A DNA stretch of 64,000 nucleotides from Luteibacter aegosomatis (lineage in GTDB: Bacteria > Pseudomonadota > Gammaproteobacteria > Xanthomonadales > Rhodanobacteraceae), in NCBI RefSeq assembly GCF_023078455.1, contig NZ_CP095740.1, forward strand, positions 3,398,001 through 3,462,000, read 5' to 3'. A program made the translations under genes and the position numbers. Position 1 is the stretch's first letter. Each line of letters opens with the position of its first letter. A model generated the notes under the pieces. It had not been told where the DNA came from. It did no database searches and worked only from the letters and a program-made list of their open reading frames with translations. Shown here one piece after another: positions 49,662 through 57,816 of the stretch.

Positions 49662-52043
49662 TCATCCTCGCATTCTTGCCTTGCATGTTTTCTCCAATGC
49701 CCCCACCGCTTCTGCCACGCGAGCGTCGGCATCTTCGTCGGTAAGGGTGCGTGAAGCGTCCTGTAAAATCAAGCCCATAGCGAGACTCTTTCGCCCTTCC
49801 TCGATTCCCTTGCCCGCATAGCGGTCGAACAGGCGGATCTCCCTCAGCGTCTCGCCCAGGGCCTCGCGCACGGCGGCCTCGACGCTGGCCCAGGTCACCT
49901 CCTCGGGCAACTCCACGGCGACGTCCCGGCGCACGGCGGGGAAACGGGCCACGCGCGTCGCACTGGGCAAACGGCGCGCCAGCAACGGCTCGAGCGCCAC
50001 CTCCATCACGTGCACGTCGGTGCCGAGGTCGAGCGCCTTGGCCAGCGCCGGATGCAATGCGCCGATGAAACCGGCCGGGCGGCCGTCACGCAGCACGCGG
50101 GCGCCCCGGCCGGGGTGCAGCCACGACGGCAGGCCGGCGGTATCCACCGACCAGCGGGCCGGTTCGCCGGTACGGGCGATCAGCGCATCGAGATCGCCCT
50201 TGAGGTCGAAGAAATCGACCGGACGCGAGGACTCGCCCCACTGCTCGGCACGAGCGCTCCCGGAAGCGACCACGGCGACGCGATCGATCTCGTCGGGGGC
50301 GCCTCCCGTGGCGTGGAAGCTCCGGGCCACCTCGAACAGGCGCACGCGCTCCTGCTGACGGGCGCTGTTGTAGCGCAGCGCCTCGACCAGGCCGGGCAGC
50401 AGCGAGGTGCGCATCACGGCCAGGTCGGCCGATAGCGGGTTGGCCAACGGCACCCACGCGGCGTCGACGCCCCAGGTCCTGAGCAGGTCGGCGTTGACGA
50501 ACGACAGCGTCACCGCCTCGAAATAGCCGCGCGCCACGAGCTGGTCGCGCAGTTGCATCGCGGACAGTCGCGCTTCCGGCTCGGGCTCGAGGGCGATCTT
50601 GCCCGCGGGCGTGGTGGTGGGAATGCGCTCGTAACCATGGATGCGGGCGACCTCCTCGATGAGGTCTTCCTCGCGCTCGATGTCGAAACGGCTGCTGGGC
50701 GGGGTGATCCGCCAGCCGTCGGCGACTTCTTCCACCGTCATGCCCAACGCGGTAAAGATGCGCGAGACCTCGCTCGCGGCCACCTCGATACCGAGCACGC
50801 GGCGCAGGCGCGCATGGCGCAGCAGCACGGGCGCGTGCTCGCGGAGGTCTTCGCTCCGCTCGGCGACGACGATCGGCCCCGCCTTGCCACCGGCGATGCC
50901 CAGCAACAGCTCCGTGGCACGCTCCAGGGCGCGACGGGGAAGCGCGGGATCGACGCCTCGCTCGAAACGATGCGATGCGTCGGTATGCAGGCCGAGCTTG
51001 CGCGCGCGCCCCATGATCGCCGACGGCGCGAAATGCGCCGCCTCGAGGAACACGTTGCGGGTCGTGTCGGTAAAGCGCGAATCGAAACCGCCCATGACGC
51101 CGGCGACGGCGAGCGGACGAGCCTCGTCGGCAATGACCACGAACGAGGGGTCGAGCTTCGCCTCGTTGCCGTCGAGCAGCTTGAGGGTTTCGCCCTGCGC
51201 GGCGTGACGGACGACGATCGACCCGGTGAGCTTGTCGTCGTCGAACGCATGCATCGGCTGGCCCAACTCGAGCATCACGTACTGGGTGATGTCGACCACG
51301 GCGCCGATCGGACGGATGCCCGCGCGACGCAAACGCTCGGCCAGCCACAGCGGCGAGGGCGCGCTCGCGTCGATGCCTTCGATCACGCGGCCGAGGTAAC
51401 GCGGCGCATCGGCACCGGCCTCGAGCCTCACCGTCCGCGTGGCGGCCGACGTCACCGCCGCCTCGCCCACGCCGATGGACTTCACCCGGCTGCCGAACAG
51501 CGCGGCCACGTCGTGCGCGAGGCCGTTGAGGCCGAGCACGTCGGGACGGTTCGGAGTGACCTTCAGCTCGATGCTGGCATCGGGCAAGCCGAGATACGCG
51601 GCCAACGACTGGCCCAGCGGCGCGTCGGACGGCAGTTCGAGCAGACCCGAGGCGTCGGCGTCGATGCCCAGCTCCTTCGCGGAACAGAGCATGCCGAAGG
51701 ATTCGACGCCGCGCAGCTTGGCCGCCTTGATCTGGATACCGCCCGGCAACGTGGCGCCGACGGTGGCCAGCGGCACGCGGATGCCTACGCGGGCGTTGGG
51801 GGCGCCACAGACGATCTGCAGCGGTGCGCCCTGCCCCGTGCTCACGGTGCAGACCTGCAGGCGATCGGCCTCGGGATGCTTCATCGCCGCGACGATCTCG
51901 GCGACGACGACGCCGTCGAGGTTCTCGCCCAGCGGCGTGACGTCTTCGACTTCGAGGCCGGCCATGGTGAGGGCATGCACGAGCGCGGCGCGGTCCGCGT
52001 CGACGGTCACCAGCTCACGCAACCAGTTTTCGGAGAATTTCAT
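49662..52043 (-). CDS. pheT: Phenylalanyl-tRNA synthetase beta subunit
   Basis: The 793-residue subunit works with PheS as an alpha2beta2 enzyme. It has the N-terminal tRNA-binding domain (about residues 40-150), the B3/B4 editing domain, B5, and a C-terminal anticodon-binding FDX-ACB domain (about 700-793, [16 protein letters not shown]). Length matches E. coli PheT (795). It follows pheS by 30 bases. Confidence 0.97.
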
Positions 52044-52073
52044 GGGAGCGACTCGTTGAACGGGGTGGGCGGA

Positions 52074-53084
<1,011 letters not shown>

Positions 53085-53094
53085 TCAGGCATAC

Positions 53095-53129
53095 AAAAAA
53101 AGATGGGGAGAAGGCAAGGCCTTCTCCCC
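53095..53129 (-). terminator. Terminator/attenuator between rplT and pheS
   Basis: GGGGAGAAGGC and GCCTTCTCCCC form a perfect 11-bp stem with a 3-base loop, followed after ATC by seven T residues (53095-53101). A second hairpin (CGCGCGG and CCGCGCG) lies upstream, between the rplT stop and this one. In E. coli pheST is controlled by a Phe leader peptide. A convincing Phe-rich leader is not seen here, so the regulating signal is open. Confidence 0.85.
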
Positions 53130-53178
53130 ACGTTATCCATCATCGCGCGGCAGGTGTTACCGCGCGTGGTAAAGCGGA

Positions 53179-53538
53179 TTACGCAGCCAGACTGGCCTTG
53201 GCCTTCTCTGCGATCGCGCCAAACGCCTTGATGTCGTGCACGGCGAGGTCGGCGAGGACCTTGCGGTCGACCGAGATGTTGGCCTTGGCCAGACCGTTGA
53301 TCAGACGGCTGTACGACAGACCGAACTGACGGGCGGCGGCGTTGATACGGACGATCCACAACGCGCGGAACTGGCGCTTGCGCTGCTTGCGGCCGATGTA
53401 CGCGTACTGACCGGCCTTGATGACGGCCTGGTTGGCTACGCGGAAGACCTTGCGGCGGGCGTTGTAGTAACCCTTGGCACGGCCGATGATTTTCTTGTGA
53501 CGACGACGGGCGGTAACACCGCGCTTAACACGAGCCAT
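53179..53538 (-). CDS. rplT: 50S ribosomal protein L20
   Basis: The 119-residue rRNA-binding protein shows the full L20 sequence ([38 protein letters not shown]). L20 is known to repress its own operon in several bacteria. It follows rpmI by 13 bases. Confidence 0.98.
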
Positions 53539-53551
53539 TTCTTAGTCTCCC

Positions 53552-53749
53552 TTAGAGATACGGCAACATGCGAGCCACACCCTTGGTGTCGCACGCCTTG
53601 ACGTGGTTGGGAGCGCGCAGGCCGCGCTTACGCTTGGTCGACTTCTTCGTCAGGATGTGCGACTTGAAGGCGTGACCGGCCTTGAACTTGCCCGAAGCGG
53701 TCTTGCGAAAACGCTTCGCGGCCGCCCGGTTGGTCTTGATCTTGGGCAT
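53552..53749 (-). CDS. rpmI: 50S ribosomal protein L35
   Basis: The 65-residue basic protein matches L35 throughout ([31 protein letters not shown]). A TATAAT promoter about 115 bases upstream would let rpmI-rplT be made apart from thrS-infC. Confidence 0.97.
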
Positions 53750-53864
53750 CGGAATGCTCCGTATCTACGGTTGCTGACTGATCCGGCGGCGGGGCCTCGC
53801 GGCGCCTGCGCTTTCCTTCCTGCCGGGGACGGTGATCGGCCCATCCTTGCGGGCCGAGCCGGCG

Positions 53865-53870
53865 ATTATA
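53865..53870 (-). promoter_or_regulatory. Promoter -10 for rpmI-rplT
   Basis: A perfect TATAAT on the minus strand in an AT-rich stretch (TTGAAATTTCACGATTTGTG precedes it). The -35 is not well placed: TTGAAA gives a 14-base spacer. Transcription would start near 53858, giving a leader of about 110 bases that could bind L20. Confidence 0.6.
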
Positions 53871-54069
53871 CACAAATCGTGAAATTTCAACACTCGGCCA
53901 TGGCGAGGCATCCCCTACCCGTCATTCCCGCGAACGCAGGAATCCGGAGCCCCCGTGTCGAGACTGGCGGAGGAGCCGGAGCGAAAAAACCGTAGGAGGC
54001 TCGTCGCGACAACCTGCTGTCATGCGCCGGGCCCCGCGTACGCAGGAGCGGCGTCTCAGCCAGATATGA

Positions 54070-54093
54070 GAACGGCGCCCTGGGGCGCCGTTC
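54070..54093 (-). terminator. Hairpin after infC
   Basis: GAACGGCGCC and GGCGCCGTTC (10-bp perfect stem, 4-base loop) followed by TCTCATAT on the minus strand, 8 bases past the infC stop. The T-run is poor, so it may be a partial terminator or a processing barrier. Confidence 0.6.
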
Positions 54094-54100
54094 GGGACGA

Positions 54101-54628
54101 TCAGATCTTCTTCTTCGGGCCGATCATCATGACCATCTGCCGGCCTTCGAGGCGGGGGAAGGATTCCACCACGCCGTCTTCGCCGATGTCGGCCTGGATC
54201 TTCCTGGCAAGGTTCTGGCCGAGGTCCTGGTGGGACATCTCACGGCCGCGGAAGCGGATCGTGACCTTCACCTTGTCGCCTTCCTCGAGGAACTCGCGCA
54301 TCTTGCGCAGCTTGATGTCGTAGTCGCCCACGTCGGTCACGGGACGGAACTTCACTTCCTTGATTTCGACCTGCTTCTGTTTCTTCTTGGCGGCCTGGGC
54401 CTTCTTCTGGGCTTCGAACTTGAACTTGCCGAAATCCATGATCTTGCAGACCGGCGGATCGCCGTTCGGCTGGATTTCGACGAGGTCGAGACCGTCCTCC
54501 TCGGCGCGGCGGATGGCCTCACGGGTATCCATGATGCCCAACTGCTCGCCCTCGGGACCCAGCACGCGCACTTTGGGCACGCGGATCTCGTTGTTCTTGC
54601 GATTGCCCTTGTTATCGGTCGTAGCGAT
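54101..54628 (-). CDS. infC: Translation initiation factor IF-3
   Basis: The 175-residue factor has N- and C-terminal domains joined by a Lys-rich linker (KKAQAAKKKQKQVEIKEVKF). The natural N-terminus (TTDNKGNRKNNEIRVPKV) requires an ATC start at 54628, preceded by GGAGG at 8 bases. An internal GTG at 54580 would remove 16 conserved residues. E. coli infC uses AUU, and IF-3 rejects such codons, giving autoregulation. An AUC start here supports the same feedback. It starts 45 bases after the thrS stop. Confidence 0.95.
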   Translation of the reverse strand: MATTDNKGNRKNNEIRVPKVRVLGPEGEQLGIMDTREAIRRAEEDGLDLVEIQPNGDPPVCKIMDFGKFKFEAQKKAQAAKKKQKQVEIKEVKFRPVTDVGDYDIKLRKMREFLEEGDKVKVTIRFRGREMSHQDLGQNLARKIQADIGEDGVVESFPRLEGRQMVMMIGPKKKI

Positions 54629-54673: not shown

Positions 54674-56575
54674 TCAGCGACGGGCCTCTGCCTCCAGTTT
54701 CGCGGCGAAGTCGGCCACCGGCATGCTGCCGAGGTCTTCGCCACCGCGAGTACGTACGGAAACGGTACCCTGCTCCTTCTCGCGGTCACCGACCACGATG
54801 AGGTAGGGCACTTTCTGCATCGTATGCTGCCGGATTTTATATCCGACCTTTTCGTTGCGCAAATCGGCATCCACCCTGAAGCCTTGTCCAACAAGGGCTT
54901 GCGTGACCTCACGCACATAATCGGCCTGAGCGTCGGTAATACCGAACACGACGGCCTGAATGGGGGCGAGCCACGGCGGAAGCAAGCCCGCGTGATGCTC
55001 GATGAGAATGCCGATGAAACGCTCCATCGAACCGACGATGGCCCGGTGAAGCATGACGGGGTGCTGACGCTGGCTGTTTTCGTCCACATACTCGGCGCCG
55101 AGGCGCTCGGGCATCATGAAATCCACCTGCATCGTGCCGACCTGCCAGGTACGGCCGATCGAATCCTTCATATGGTACTCGATCTTGGGGCCATAGAAGG
55201 CGCCCTCGCCCGGGAGTTCTTCCCACGTCACCCCGGCCGCGGACAGCGCCTTGCGCAGGGCGTCCTCCGCCTTGTCCCAGACTTCCTCGGCGCCGATGCG
55301 CTTTTCGGGGCGCAGGGCGATCTTCATGGCGATGTCCTCGAACCCGAAGTCCGAGTAGACCTGCATGGCCTGCTGGTGGAAGGCGGCCACTTCCTCCTCG
55401 ATCTGCGCCGGGGTGCAGAAGATATGGCCGTCGTCCTGGGTAAAGGCGCGCACGCGCATGATGCCGTGCAGCGCGCCCGAGGGTTCGTTACGGTGGCAGC
55501 CGCCGAACTCGCCGTAGCGGATCGGCAGGTCGCGATAGCTGTGCAGGTTGGCGTTGAAGATCTGCACGTGGCCTGGGCAGTTCATCGGCTTGAGCGCGTA
55601 GGTGCGCTTTTCCGACTCGGTGAAGAACATGTTCTCGTGGTAGTTGTCCCAATGGCCGGACTTCTTCCACAGGCTCACGTCCATGATCTGCGGCCCGCGC
55701 ACTTCCTGGTAGCCGCTCTTGCGGTACACGCCGCGCACGTACTGCTCCACTACCTGCCAGATGGCCCAACCCTTGGGATGCCAGAAGACCATGCCCGGGG
55801 CCTCTTCCTGCTGGTGGAAGAGGTCGAGCTCCTTGGCGATGCGGCGGTGGTCGCGCTTCTCGGCCTCCTCGAGCTGGACGAGGTAGGCTTTCAGGTCCTT
55901 GTCGTTGAGCCACGACGTGCCGTAGATGCGGCTGAGCATCTCGTTGTTGGAATCGCCGCGCCAATAGGCGCCCGCCACCTTCATGAGCTTGAACGCGCGC
56001 AGCTTGCCGGTGTTGGACACGTGCGGGCCGCGGCACAGGTCGGTGAACTCGCCCTGGGTATAGAGCGACAGCTCTTCGCCGGCCGGGATCGACTCGATGA
56101 TCTGCGCCTTGTATTCCTCACCCAGGTCACGGAAGAAACGGATCGCCTCGTCGCGGCTCTTCACCGAGCGCGTGACGGGGATCTGCTCCTTGACGATCTT
56201 CTCCATCTCGGCCTGGATGGCGTCCAGGTCGTCGGGCGTGAAGGGACGCTCGTAGGCGAAGTCGTAATAGAAGCCGTTGTCGATGACCGGGCCGATGGTG
56301 ACCTGCGCGCCGGGGAACAGGCGCTGCACGGCCTGGCCGAGAAGGTGCGCCGTGGAATGGCGCAGGATGTCCAGGGCCTCGGGGCTCTTTTCCGTGACGA
56401 TTTCCAGCGAGGCATCGCGATCGATGGTGAAGCTCGCATCGACCAGTTTGCCGTCCACCTTGCCGGCGAGGGTGGCCTTGGCGAGGCCCGCGCCGATCGA
56501 GGCGGCGACGTCCTGCACGGACACGGGGTGGTCGAAGGGGCGCTGGCTGCCGTCGGGGAGCGTGATCTGGATCAT
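54674..56575 (-). CDS. thrS: Threonyl-tRNA synthetase
   Basis: The 633-residue class-II synthetase has the TGS domain (1-60), the editing domain ([23 protein letters not shown]), the catalytic domain with zinc ligands in MNCPGHV, DDGHIFC and [13 protein letters not shown], and the anticodon domain ([13 protein letters not shown]). Length is close to E. coli ThrS (642). Upstream lies a promoter, a Thr-rich leader peptide and a terminator, suggesting attenuation. ATG 56575. Confidence 0.98.
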
Positions 56576-56597
56576 GGGAACGGATTTCCGGACAAAC

Positions 56598-56619
56598 AAA
56601 AAGGGCGCCAGGCGCCCTT
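56598..56619 (-). terminator. Attenuator terminator in the thrS leader
   Basis: AAGGGCG and CGCCCTT form the stem around CCTGG, followed by TTTTTGTTTG on the minus strand. It lies 23 bases before the thrS start and 30 bases after the leader peptide. The left arm (CGAAGGGCG, 56621-56613) can instead pair with CGTCTTCG (56637-56630), giving a possible antiterminator. Confidence 0.88.
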
Positions 56620-56648
56620 CGGATGGAGACGAAGACGTGGCGGTGGAA

Positions 56649-56675
56649 TCAGGTTGAGCAGGTCGTAGTCCGCAT
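56649..56675 (-). CDS. Threonine-rich leader peptide of thrS
   Basis: The eight-residue reading frame encodes MRTTTCST with codons ACT, ACG, ACC and ACC for threonine, then TGA. Half the residues are Thr. It lies downstream of a good promoter and 30 bases upstream of an intrinsic terminator, exactly as a transcription-attenuation leader should. Low charged tRNA-Thr would stall the ribosome on it and favour read-through into thrS. The ribosome-binding site is weak (GAGTG). This is an inference from sequence. Confidence 0.75.
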
Positions 56676-56731
56676 GTCGCACACTCGGCCGGCGTTGCCG
56701 CGGGCCACCCTCGTCTCGTGGATGCCGGCAA

Positions 56732-56760
56732 AAACTAGTTCAGCCCTCGCGCCGTGTCAA
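56732..56760 (-). promoter_or_regulatory. Promoter of thrS
   Basis: TTGACA (56760-56755) and TAGTTT (56737-56732) are separated by 17 bases on the minus strand. Transcription would begin near 56726, giving a leader of about 150 bases. It is divergent from the epimerase gene, whose own -10-like TACAAT is at 56774-56779 on the plus strand. Confidence 0.75.
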
Positions 56761-56773
56761 CGGCACGCTCCAT

Positions 56774-56779
56774 TACAAT
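56774..56779 (+). promoter_or_regulatory. -10 hexamer upstream of the epimerase gene
   Basis: TACAAT 29 bases before the epimerase start codon. No good -35 is visible at the expected distance. The site lies just beyond the -35 of the divergent thrS promoter. Confidence 0.4.
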
Positions 56780-56808
56780 GGGGTTTTCCCCTCCTCGGGC
56801 AAGCCCCC

Positions 56809-57816
56809 ATGCGCATCCTGGTCACCGGCAGTGCCGGCTTCGTCGGCGCGGCCCTCACCGAACGCCTGCTGGCACGCGGCGACACGGTGCTCGGCCTCGA
56901 CAACCACAACGACTACTACGACCCGGCCCTGAAAGAGGCCCGGCTGGCCCGTTTCGCCAGCCATCCCGCCTACACGCACCTACGGGCCGATCTCGCCGAG
57001 CAGGCCGCCGTGGACAGGGCCTTCGCGGACTTCGTGCCCGAGCGCGTGGTCAACCTGGCCGCGCAGGCCGGCGTGCGCTATTCGCTCACCCACCCCCACG
57101 CCTATGTGCAGAGCAATCTGGTCGGCTTCGTGAACGTGCTCGAGGCCTGCCGACGCCACGAAGTGGCCCATCTGGTGTATGCGTCGTCCAGCTCGGTCTA
57201 CGGCGCCAACCGGAAGATGCCCTTCGCCGTGGAAGACGCGGTGGACCATCCCGTGAGCCTCTACGCGGCCACCAAGAAATCCAACGAGCTGATGGCGCAC
57301 ACGTACAGCCACCTGTTCGGCCTGCCGACCACGGGGCTGCGCTTCTTCACGGTGTACGGGCCGTGGGGCCGTCCGGATATGTCGCCGATCCTGTTCGCCA
57401 GCCGCATCCTGCGCGGCGAGCCCATCGACGTGTTCAACCACGGACAGCACAGCCGCGACTTCACCTATATCGACGACATCGTCGAGGGCGTGATCCGCAC
57501 CCTCGACCATCCCGCGCGCCCCGATCCGTCGTACGACCCGACGATGCCGAATCCCGGCACGTCGTCGGCGCCGTATCGCGTCTACAACATCGGTAACGAC
57601 GAACCGGTGCAGTTGCTCGATTTCATCGGCTTGCTCGAGAAGCACCTCGGACGCAGCGTCGAGAAGAATCTGCTGCCGATGCAGCCGGGCGACGTACCGG
57701 ACACGTGGGCCGACGTGTCGGCACTGCGGCGCGACGTGGGGTATGCCCCGTCGACGCCGGTGGATGAGGGGGTACGGCGGTTCGCGGAGTGGTACAAGGG
57801 TTTCTACAAGCATTGA
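56809..57816 (+). CDS. NAD-dependent nucleotide-sugar epimerase (UDP-glucuronate 4-epimerase type)
   Basis: The 335-residue extended SDR protein has VTGSAGFVGAALTERLL at the N-terminus, the DNHNDYYDPALKEARLARF segment typical of UDP-glucuronate epimerases (CapI/WbpP-like), SSSSVYG and the catalytic Tyr-x-x-x-Lys in SLYAATKKSNE. It should supply UDP-galacturonate for surface polysaccharide or LPS, by family analogy. It is not in a sugar gene cluster here. It converges with recD, with a REP pair between. Confidence 0.9.
   Translation: MRILVTGSAGFVGAALTERLLARGDTVLGLDNHNDYYDPALKEARLARFASHPAYTHLRADLAEQAAVDRAFADFVPERVVNLAAQAGVRYSLTHPHAYVQSNLVGFVNVLEACRRHEVAHLVYASSSSVYGANRKMPFAVEDAVDHPVSLYAATKKSNELMAHTYSHLFGLPTTGLRFFTVYGPWGRPDMSPILFASRILRGEPIDVFNHGQHSRDFTYIDDIVEGVIRTLDHPARPDPSYDPTMPNPGTSSAPYRVYNIGNDEPVQLLDFIGLLEKHLGRSVEKNLLPMQPGDVPDTWADVSALRRDVGYAPSTPVDEGVRRFAEWYKGFYKH

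Follow-up and report, generated by a model that had tools for sequence, protein, structure and literature searches.

The thrS gene of Luteibacter aegosomatis is very probably controlled by a transcription attenuator, in which translation of a short leader peptide would sense the charging of Thr-tRNA. This reading of the DNA derives from a window of 64,000 nucleotides (the whole stretch analyzed, in whose coordinates all positions are given), where thrS, named from its translation as the gene for threonyl-tRNA synthetase (ThrRS), occupies positions 54674-56575 of the minus strand, with its ATG at 56575. It is followed at 49662-54580 of the minus strand by frames whose translations resemble infC, rplT, pheS and pheT; all run in the same direction, so that the attenuator may reach beyond thrS. 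Upstream of the leader lies a divergent neighbor (plus strand, from ~56809), epimerase-like in our own reading of the frame. Judged by thrS, the closest named genome is a Luteibacter (95%).

The elements of the leader are all on the minus strand. A -35-like TTGACA (56755-56760) and a -10-like TAGTTT (56732-56737), the latter a weak match, are separated by a 17-nt spacer. Segment A (GAGACGAGGGTGGC, 56704-56717) includes an SD-like GGTGG, which forms part of a conserved AGGTGG, and is followed by a hairpin, termed P1 (GGCCCGCG-GCAA-CGCCGGCC, 56687-56706), located between the SD-like motif and the leader ATG. A possible second, bulged SD, GAGTGTG (56680-56686), is conserved as GAG-N-GTG, although the search motif included its last bases; its calculated duplex with the anti-SD is weaker than that of the upstream GGGTGG segment (-5.8 versus -7.4 kcal/mol). 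The leader frame (ATG CGG ACT ACG ACC TGC TCA ACC TGA, 56649-56675) encodes MRTTTCST, with threonine at codons 3-5 (ACT ACG ACC, 56661-56669) and a fourth Thr codon, ACC, at 56654-56652. Segment C (GCCACGTCTTCGTCTC, 56626-56641), the proposed alternative partner of both A and the left side of the terminator, precedes the intrinsic terminator (GAAGGGCGCCTGGCGCCCTTTTTG, 56597-56620), which has a stem at 56620-56600 (9 pairs, 3-nt loop) and a T tract to 56598. The order of small frame, T-run terminator and thrS, as described in the first-pass annotation, was thus confirmed in the minus-strand sequence and by a terminator scan.

The distribution of the leader core was analyzed with a covariance model (R1), which was searched in 299 genomes of the order Xanthomonadales at E values up to 0.001. 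Matches were found in 151 of the genomes, and by hand count these comprised 70 of the 76 genomes of the window's own family (f1), along with 78 from family f2 and three from other families; misses within f2 are uncountable, since 128 unmatched genomes are unlisted. Each genome carried a single match except G027 and G207, where a second, weak match (~25 bits) was taken as chance; that of G207 sits inside a long open frame. For loci L121-L140 and L161-L240, the position before thrS was established only where the thrS homology search placed thrS. Of the six unmatched f1 genomes, five have a different leader, namely MTRIFDILD (with a single Thr), MTRTSTLH, MTRTSAH, MTRTFAH or MTRVNTAS, and in one (L258) no Thr leader was seen by eye before thrS. 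In a set of 110 thrS loci obtained from thrS homology searches (30 plus 80 named), the same leader core occurred upstream of thrS in 56 (53 distinct). A 57th core match (L095) was located at thrS itself and was dropped as spurious.

The leader frame and its Thr codons were compared across 144 distinct leaders, from 154 found by motifs that cover positions -7 to +3 or -9 to +3 of the leader ATG. The frame has eight codons in 125 of them; the others have seven (8 leaders), six (6), nine (3), twelve (1) or five (1). Threonine is encoded at codon 3 in all 144 and at codon 4 in 128, and codon 3 is ACT in 138. The conservation of codon 3 in this set is partly selected, since a hit with AC at this codon was preferred in the -9 to +3 part whenever several were available and the loci of that part were chosen by R1, which contains the codon. 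The 56 loci mentioned above, defined by thrS homology and a motif at -7 to +3, were selected without regard to codon 3; Thr is present there in 56 of 56, as ACT in 55. ACT is otherwise a rare codon, used for 30 of the 1336 threonines that thrS encodes in L001-L076 and for 2 of 152 in seven frames of the window, while codon 4 is closer to normal usage (ACC 87, ACG 32, ACA 7, ACT 2). Among the 125 eight-codon frames, Thr occupies codon 5 in 39, codon 8 in 21, and codons 6 and 7 in a single frame apiece. The conserved signal therefore consists of codons 3 and 4, and the run of three threonines, which had been expected to be conserved as a whole, is partly the window's own.

A promoter scan of 56550-56850 gave no site at its threshold, owing to the poor -10 sequence TAGTTT; the proposed promoter is nevertheless present as sequence, and the arrangement TTGA[CT]...TANNNT recurs in 12 of 23 leaders of the Luteibacter group, in 9 of 50 other own-family leaders and in 8 of 71 leaders of f2, with none in the control segments of each set. 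The terminator scan of the same region detected a single site, that of the leader, where 0.2 would be expected in shuffles. Behind the leader frame, a terminator-like hairpin was detected in 132 of the 144 distinct leaders, mostly 20-30 nt beyond the stop codon. The absence of the frame or the terminator from related genomes had been named at the outset as an observation that would speak against attenuation; both are widely present. The finder reported no terminator in the 12 remaining leaders (L049, L053, L060, L064, L076, L138, L139, L166, L168, L170, L197 and L203), most of which are from the Lysobacteraceae/Xanthomonas family, and in leaders of that family without a found terminator the control may differ or be in decay. 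In L170 a hairpin with a T tract is visible by eye, an apparent miss by the finder.

Threonine also stands out when all residues are treated alike. In a first control, ATG frames of 5-25 codons that end close before a terminator were examined for two identical residues in a row, in the 110 of 130 upstream regions with a terminator, close relatives being counted singly. Threonine scored in 66 loci, Arg in 11, Ser in 6 and every other residue in at most 2. In a second control, a residue was required at least twice and in at least 20 percent of the frame, using distinct upstream regions and taxon groups assigned from record titles. Threonine was then found in 22 of 32 named Xanthomonadales (next, Pro, 3), in 21 of 35 Burkholderiales (Arg 19), in 16 of 20 upstream regions from other families of the order (next residue, 2) and in 30 of 30 own-family relatives (Arg 19). 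The Arg scores arise because many leaders read MRTTR or MTPRT. Under the rule of the second control, 10 of the 32 named Xanthomonadales and 14 of the 35 Burkholderiales had no Thr leader before thrS, and the same was true of L149, L150, L159 and L160 among the 20 regions from the order. The remaining named loci scored 0 of 13 for Thr (Halomonas-like, Alcanivorax, Marinobacterium, Rhodocyclaceae, Azospira, Methylophilaceae, and vaguely or doubtfully labeled bins).

Differently built Thr leaders precede thrS in other families of the order and in the Burkholderiales. They include MCQQATTTTTP, MNVSFRTTT, MKTTTKN and MTRTTQLITRTID, and, in the Burkholderiales, MTPRTTTKYWE or MTPRTLTETTSERR. Leaders of the MRTTTMAIH type directly follow GAGGTGGCAC, and those of the MTRTDSPA type follow GGAG-hairpin-ACGATCACC. 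A second leader type before thrS, observed in L045, L141, L142, L259 and L261-L264, consists of GGAG, CGTA, a hairpin, ACGATCACC and ATGACGCGA; by eye, its hairpin stem varies in step (GTTC/GAAC, GTCC/GGAC, GCCC/GGGC). Both leader types occur within one genus of the window's own family (G026 versus G235, G272 and G275). In L147 and L148, AGGTGG is positioned 3 nt before the ATG, with no hairpin, which supports AGGTGG as the leader ribosome-binding site in the window's type.

Hairpin P1 and the bases around the leader ATG are strongly conserved. In the 53 distinct sequences, 97.8% of the cells of P1 are paired and three of its seven pairs are changed on both sides, a result that was equaled in 0 of 500 shuffles; the loop is GNRA in 82 of the 144 leaders. 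The linear distance from AGGTG to the ATG has a median of 31 nt (measured in 120 of the 144). In the window, the spacing between the SD-like motif and the ATG is 30 nt, and by our own count it would be 11 nt with P1 closed.

Such conservation of P1 and of the bases around the ATG exceeds what is expected of an ordinary attenuator leader, and it is an argument for an alternative reading, in which control is constitutive or mainly translational, ThrRS or another protein recognizes the core as an RNA operator, and the small frame is incidental. E. coli thrS, which is under a ThrRS-bound operator, offers a model for such an arrangement. We consider this reading improbable, as Thr codons recur in leaders that lack this core, both in other families and in the Burkholderiales, the residue controls single out threonine, a terminator-like hairpin lies behind the frame in the great majority of leaders, and no anticodon-like loop was seen by eye in P1. 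The same Thr codons and terminators, together with threonine as the outlier residue, support the classical amino-acid attenuation logic that had been proposed for this leader, insofar as sequence comparison can speak to it.

Attenuation further calls for alternative pairings, for which the evidence is uneven. The frame, the Thr codons, the terminator and P1 are conserved among the leaders, and covariation was detected between A and C in the window's own family and between C and the terminator loop in the sister family f2. The default fold of the window's leader combines the A:C pairing, P1 and the terminator, and would result in termination. The whole-leader fold has an unremarkable energy (z -1.19, a level reached by 27 of 200 shuffles), so that it is the conservation of the leader that exceeds chance, the fold by itself being within it. 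For A:C in the own family, segments paired with their own partners gave -15.0 kcal/mol as against -13.6 for permuted partners, and 0 of 5000 permutations were as good; within subgroups the values were 2 of 5000 in Luteibacter and, more weakly, 77 of 5000 among the remaining members of the family. Swaps and shuffles on broad segments gave mean z values of -1.77 (Luteibacter) and -1.21 (rest of the family), whereas f2 gave no sign of A:C (mean z -0.21; own partners beat the median swap in a fraction of 0.53). Both of the mutually exclusive folds of the first-pass annotation can be drawn, but its pairing of GGTGG with CCACC (56646-56642) is specific to the window. Conservation instead points to GCCAC (56641-56637) as the partner of GGTGGC, and the relatives in Luteibacter keep CGCCACG.

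The pairing of C with the left side of the terminator (C:D) can be formed with at least five pairs in 71 of 71 own-family leaders and in 47 of 49 leaders of f2. In f2, the terminator loop and the post-stop segment C matched their own partners better than others (-6.50 versus -5.46, 0 of 5000; own better in 32 of 42 leaders), as exemplified by CGAGG/CCTCG, CAAGG/CCTTG and ACAAGG/CCTTGT. In the own family, C with the terminator side gave 60 of 5000 in a wide test (1913 and 1190 of 5000 in two subgroups alone), and C with the terminator foot gave 3 of 5000 in a restricted test; the swap and shuffle test of C:D on broad segments was near zero. None of these permutation tests takes relatedness into account; they were run in several versions, and the narrower ones were devised post hoc after the alignments had been viewed. 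The folding energy of the antiterminator was no better than that of shuffles in three groups (mean z -0.33, -0.16 and -0.46), and RNAalifold returned no structure from the gappy f2 post-stop alignment. The stem covariation that had been anticipated across relatives is thus found for P1, for A:C in the own family and for C with the terminator loop in f2, but A:C is unsupported in f2 and C:D is null within the own-family subgroups.

The latter result, together with the antiterminator energies, could be accommodated by an arrangement in which the terminator only sets a basal level of read-through and the Thr codons slow translation of the leader, with no mutually exclusive folds. We regard this as slightly less probable still than a protein-bound operator, given the A:C permutation results in the own family and in Luteibacter, the covariation of the f2 loop with C and the spacing of mostly 20-30 nt between stop codon and terminator. 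A start of thrS further upstream, which would make the leader region coding, can be set aside almost completely: the thrS frame is open up to a TTG at 56731 in the window, but the length of this open frame ranges between 637 and 787 aa in full-length matches of the 633-aa query, and the distance from leader to thrS varies from 94 to 282 nt among relatives.

In the attenuation mechanism that we favor, transcription would start ~50 nt before the leader ATG, judging from the position of the -10 element. A ribosome would bind AGGTGG, be held near the start codon by P1 and begin the putative eight-codon frame. With enough Thr-tRNA, it would reach the stop codon and leave, C would pair back with A, and the terminator would form. 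When Thr-tRNA is short, the ribosome would wait at Thr codons 3-4, on or near its binding site, such that A would be occupied and C available to the left side of the terminator as a pairing partner; no terminator would form and thrS would be transcribed. We infer both that the waiting ribosome masks A and that the response runs in this direction.

The geometry places a demand on this mechanism. A ribosome usually covers ~15 nt either way, and with codon 3 or 4 in the A site its footprint would span ~56686-56657, which leaves both A and C free. The A:C pairing could then form around the ribosome, and read-through requires that A be masked. An ordinary footprint at codon 3 falls short of A; the SD bridged by P1 would supply the masking. 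At the stop codon the ribosome would reach only ~56639, the start of C, so that release and A:C pairing probably outweigh the masking of C. More tentatively, the ribosome-binding site of the leader may itself be the switch strand, with Thr codons 3-4 (including the rare ACT) halting a starved ribosome before it lets go, so that the attenuator would read the occupancy of its initiation site and not how far along the leader a ribosome has stopped. As part of the same doubtful proposal, this logic would have arisen on more than one occasion, as the second leader type also has a hairpin between GGAG and ATG.

Leader-peptide transcription attenuation is a known kind of control, and pheST provides a known case for a synthetase gene. 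The classical leader attenuators, those of E. coli trp, his and thr, share with the present leader a short frame containing codons for the sensed residue, a terminator before the gene and alternative pairings. They differ from it in that the frame here has eight codons with two conserved, start-proximal Thr codons, the order is SD-hairpin-AUG, and control is exerted on a synthetase gene, where the classical leaders govern biosynthetic operons. E. coli pheM-pheST likewise combines leader-peptide attenuation with an aminoacyl-tRNA synthetase gene, with Phe instead of Thr; we know of no conserved hairpin between its SD and start. In E. coli thrS, ThrRS binds its own mRNA and blocks translation. 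The gene and the feedback on ThrRS supply are the same as proposed here, whereas in the present case a leader frame and a terminator precede thrS. Passages of one publication mention the self-regulation of ThrRS (PMC2965389).

In agreement with the initial statement that none was known for this group, no prior description of a proteobacterial Thr leader on thrS was found in the open-access literature, most subscription papers being outside the scope of the search. The nearest parallel is thrL-thrS of Streptomyces lividans, for which a Thr-dependent leader peptide before thrS is weakly claimed in passages of PMC8079986. According to those passages, that leader differs in having 18 aa (MKRVRPFLETTPGFVPAR), two Thr and a leaderless start, and its authors consider termination unclear (PMC8079986). 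A precedent for a bridged leader ribosome site is provided by phage T4 genes 38 and 25, in which an intervening hairpin brings SD and AUG closer together (in gene 25 the spacing falls from 27 to 11 nt, compared with 30 to 11 nt here); these are phage genes, and the relevant passages of the paper do not mention attenuation (PMC3014915). What appears to be new is a probable Thr leader attenuator on thrS in proteobacteria, with the unusual details of an SD-ATG hairpin, the rare ACT at codon 3 and covarying post-stop pairings.

If this interpretation is right, the synthetase would probably be self-adjusting: a shortage of loaded tRNA would cause the stop to be skipped and more ThrRS to be made. 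For a large group of proteobacteria, leader translation would then replace the E. coli textbook picture of thrS control, in which ThrRS binds its mRNA. With infC, a ribosomal protein gene and pheST following thrS, the supply of Thr-tRNA may have an effect on initiation factor 3 and PheRS as well. Two features lend themselves to concrete tests, the fixed rare codon ACT and the bridged ribosome site, and the several differently built Thr leaders on thrS constitute a natural series for how attenuators arise and are replaced.

At the gathering score, Rfam 15, whose families we take to include T-box, the Thr leader of thrABC and others, detected only one tRNA in the window, and only four tRNAs in 11 related loci; its best match to the leader region was an sRNA on the other strand (E=4). 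A simple frame scan next to the two homoserine dehydrogenase genes of the same genome found no Thr leader. The Halomonas-like and Marinobacterium loci L073, L084, L093 and L106, which have no Thr leader, share by eye a motif ending in CACCACT shortly before the start codon, perhaps an operator of the E. coli type. A tRNA gene precedes the thrS leader in several families (by Rfam match in L041 and L054, and by eye in L142-L148), and this position suggests that tRNA gene and leader share a transcript there.
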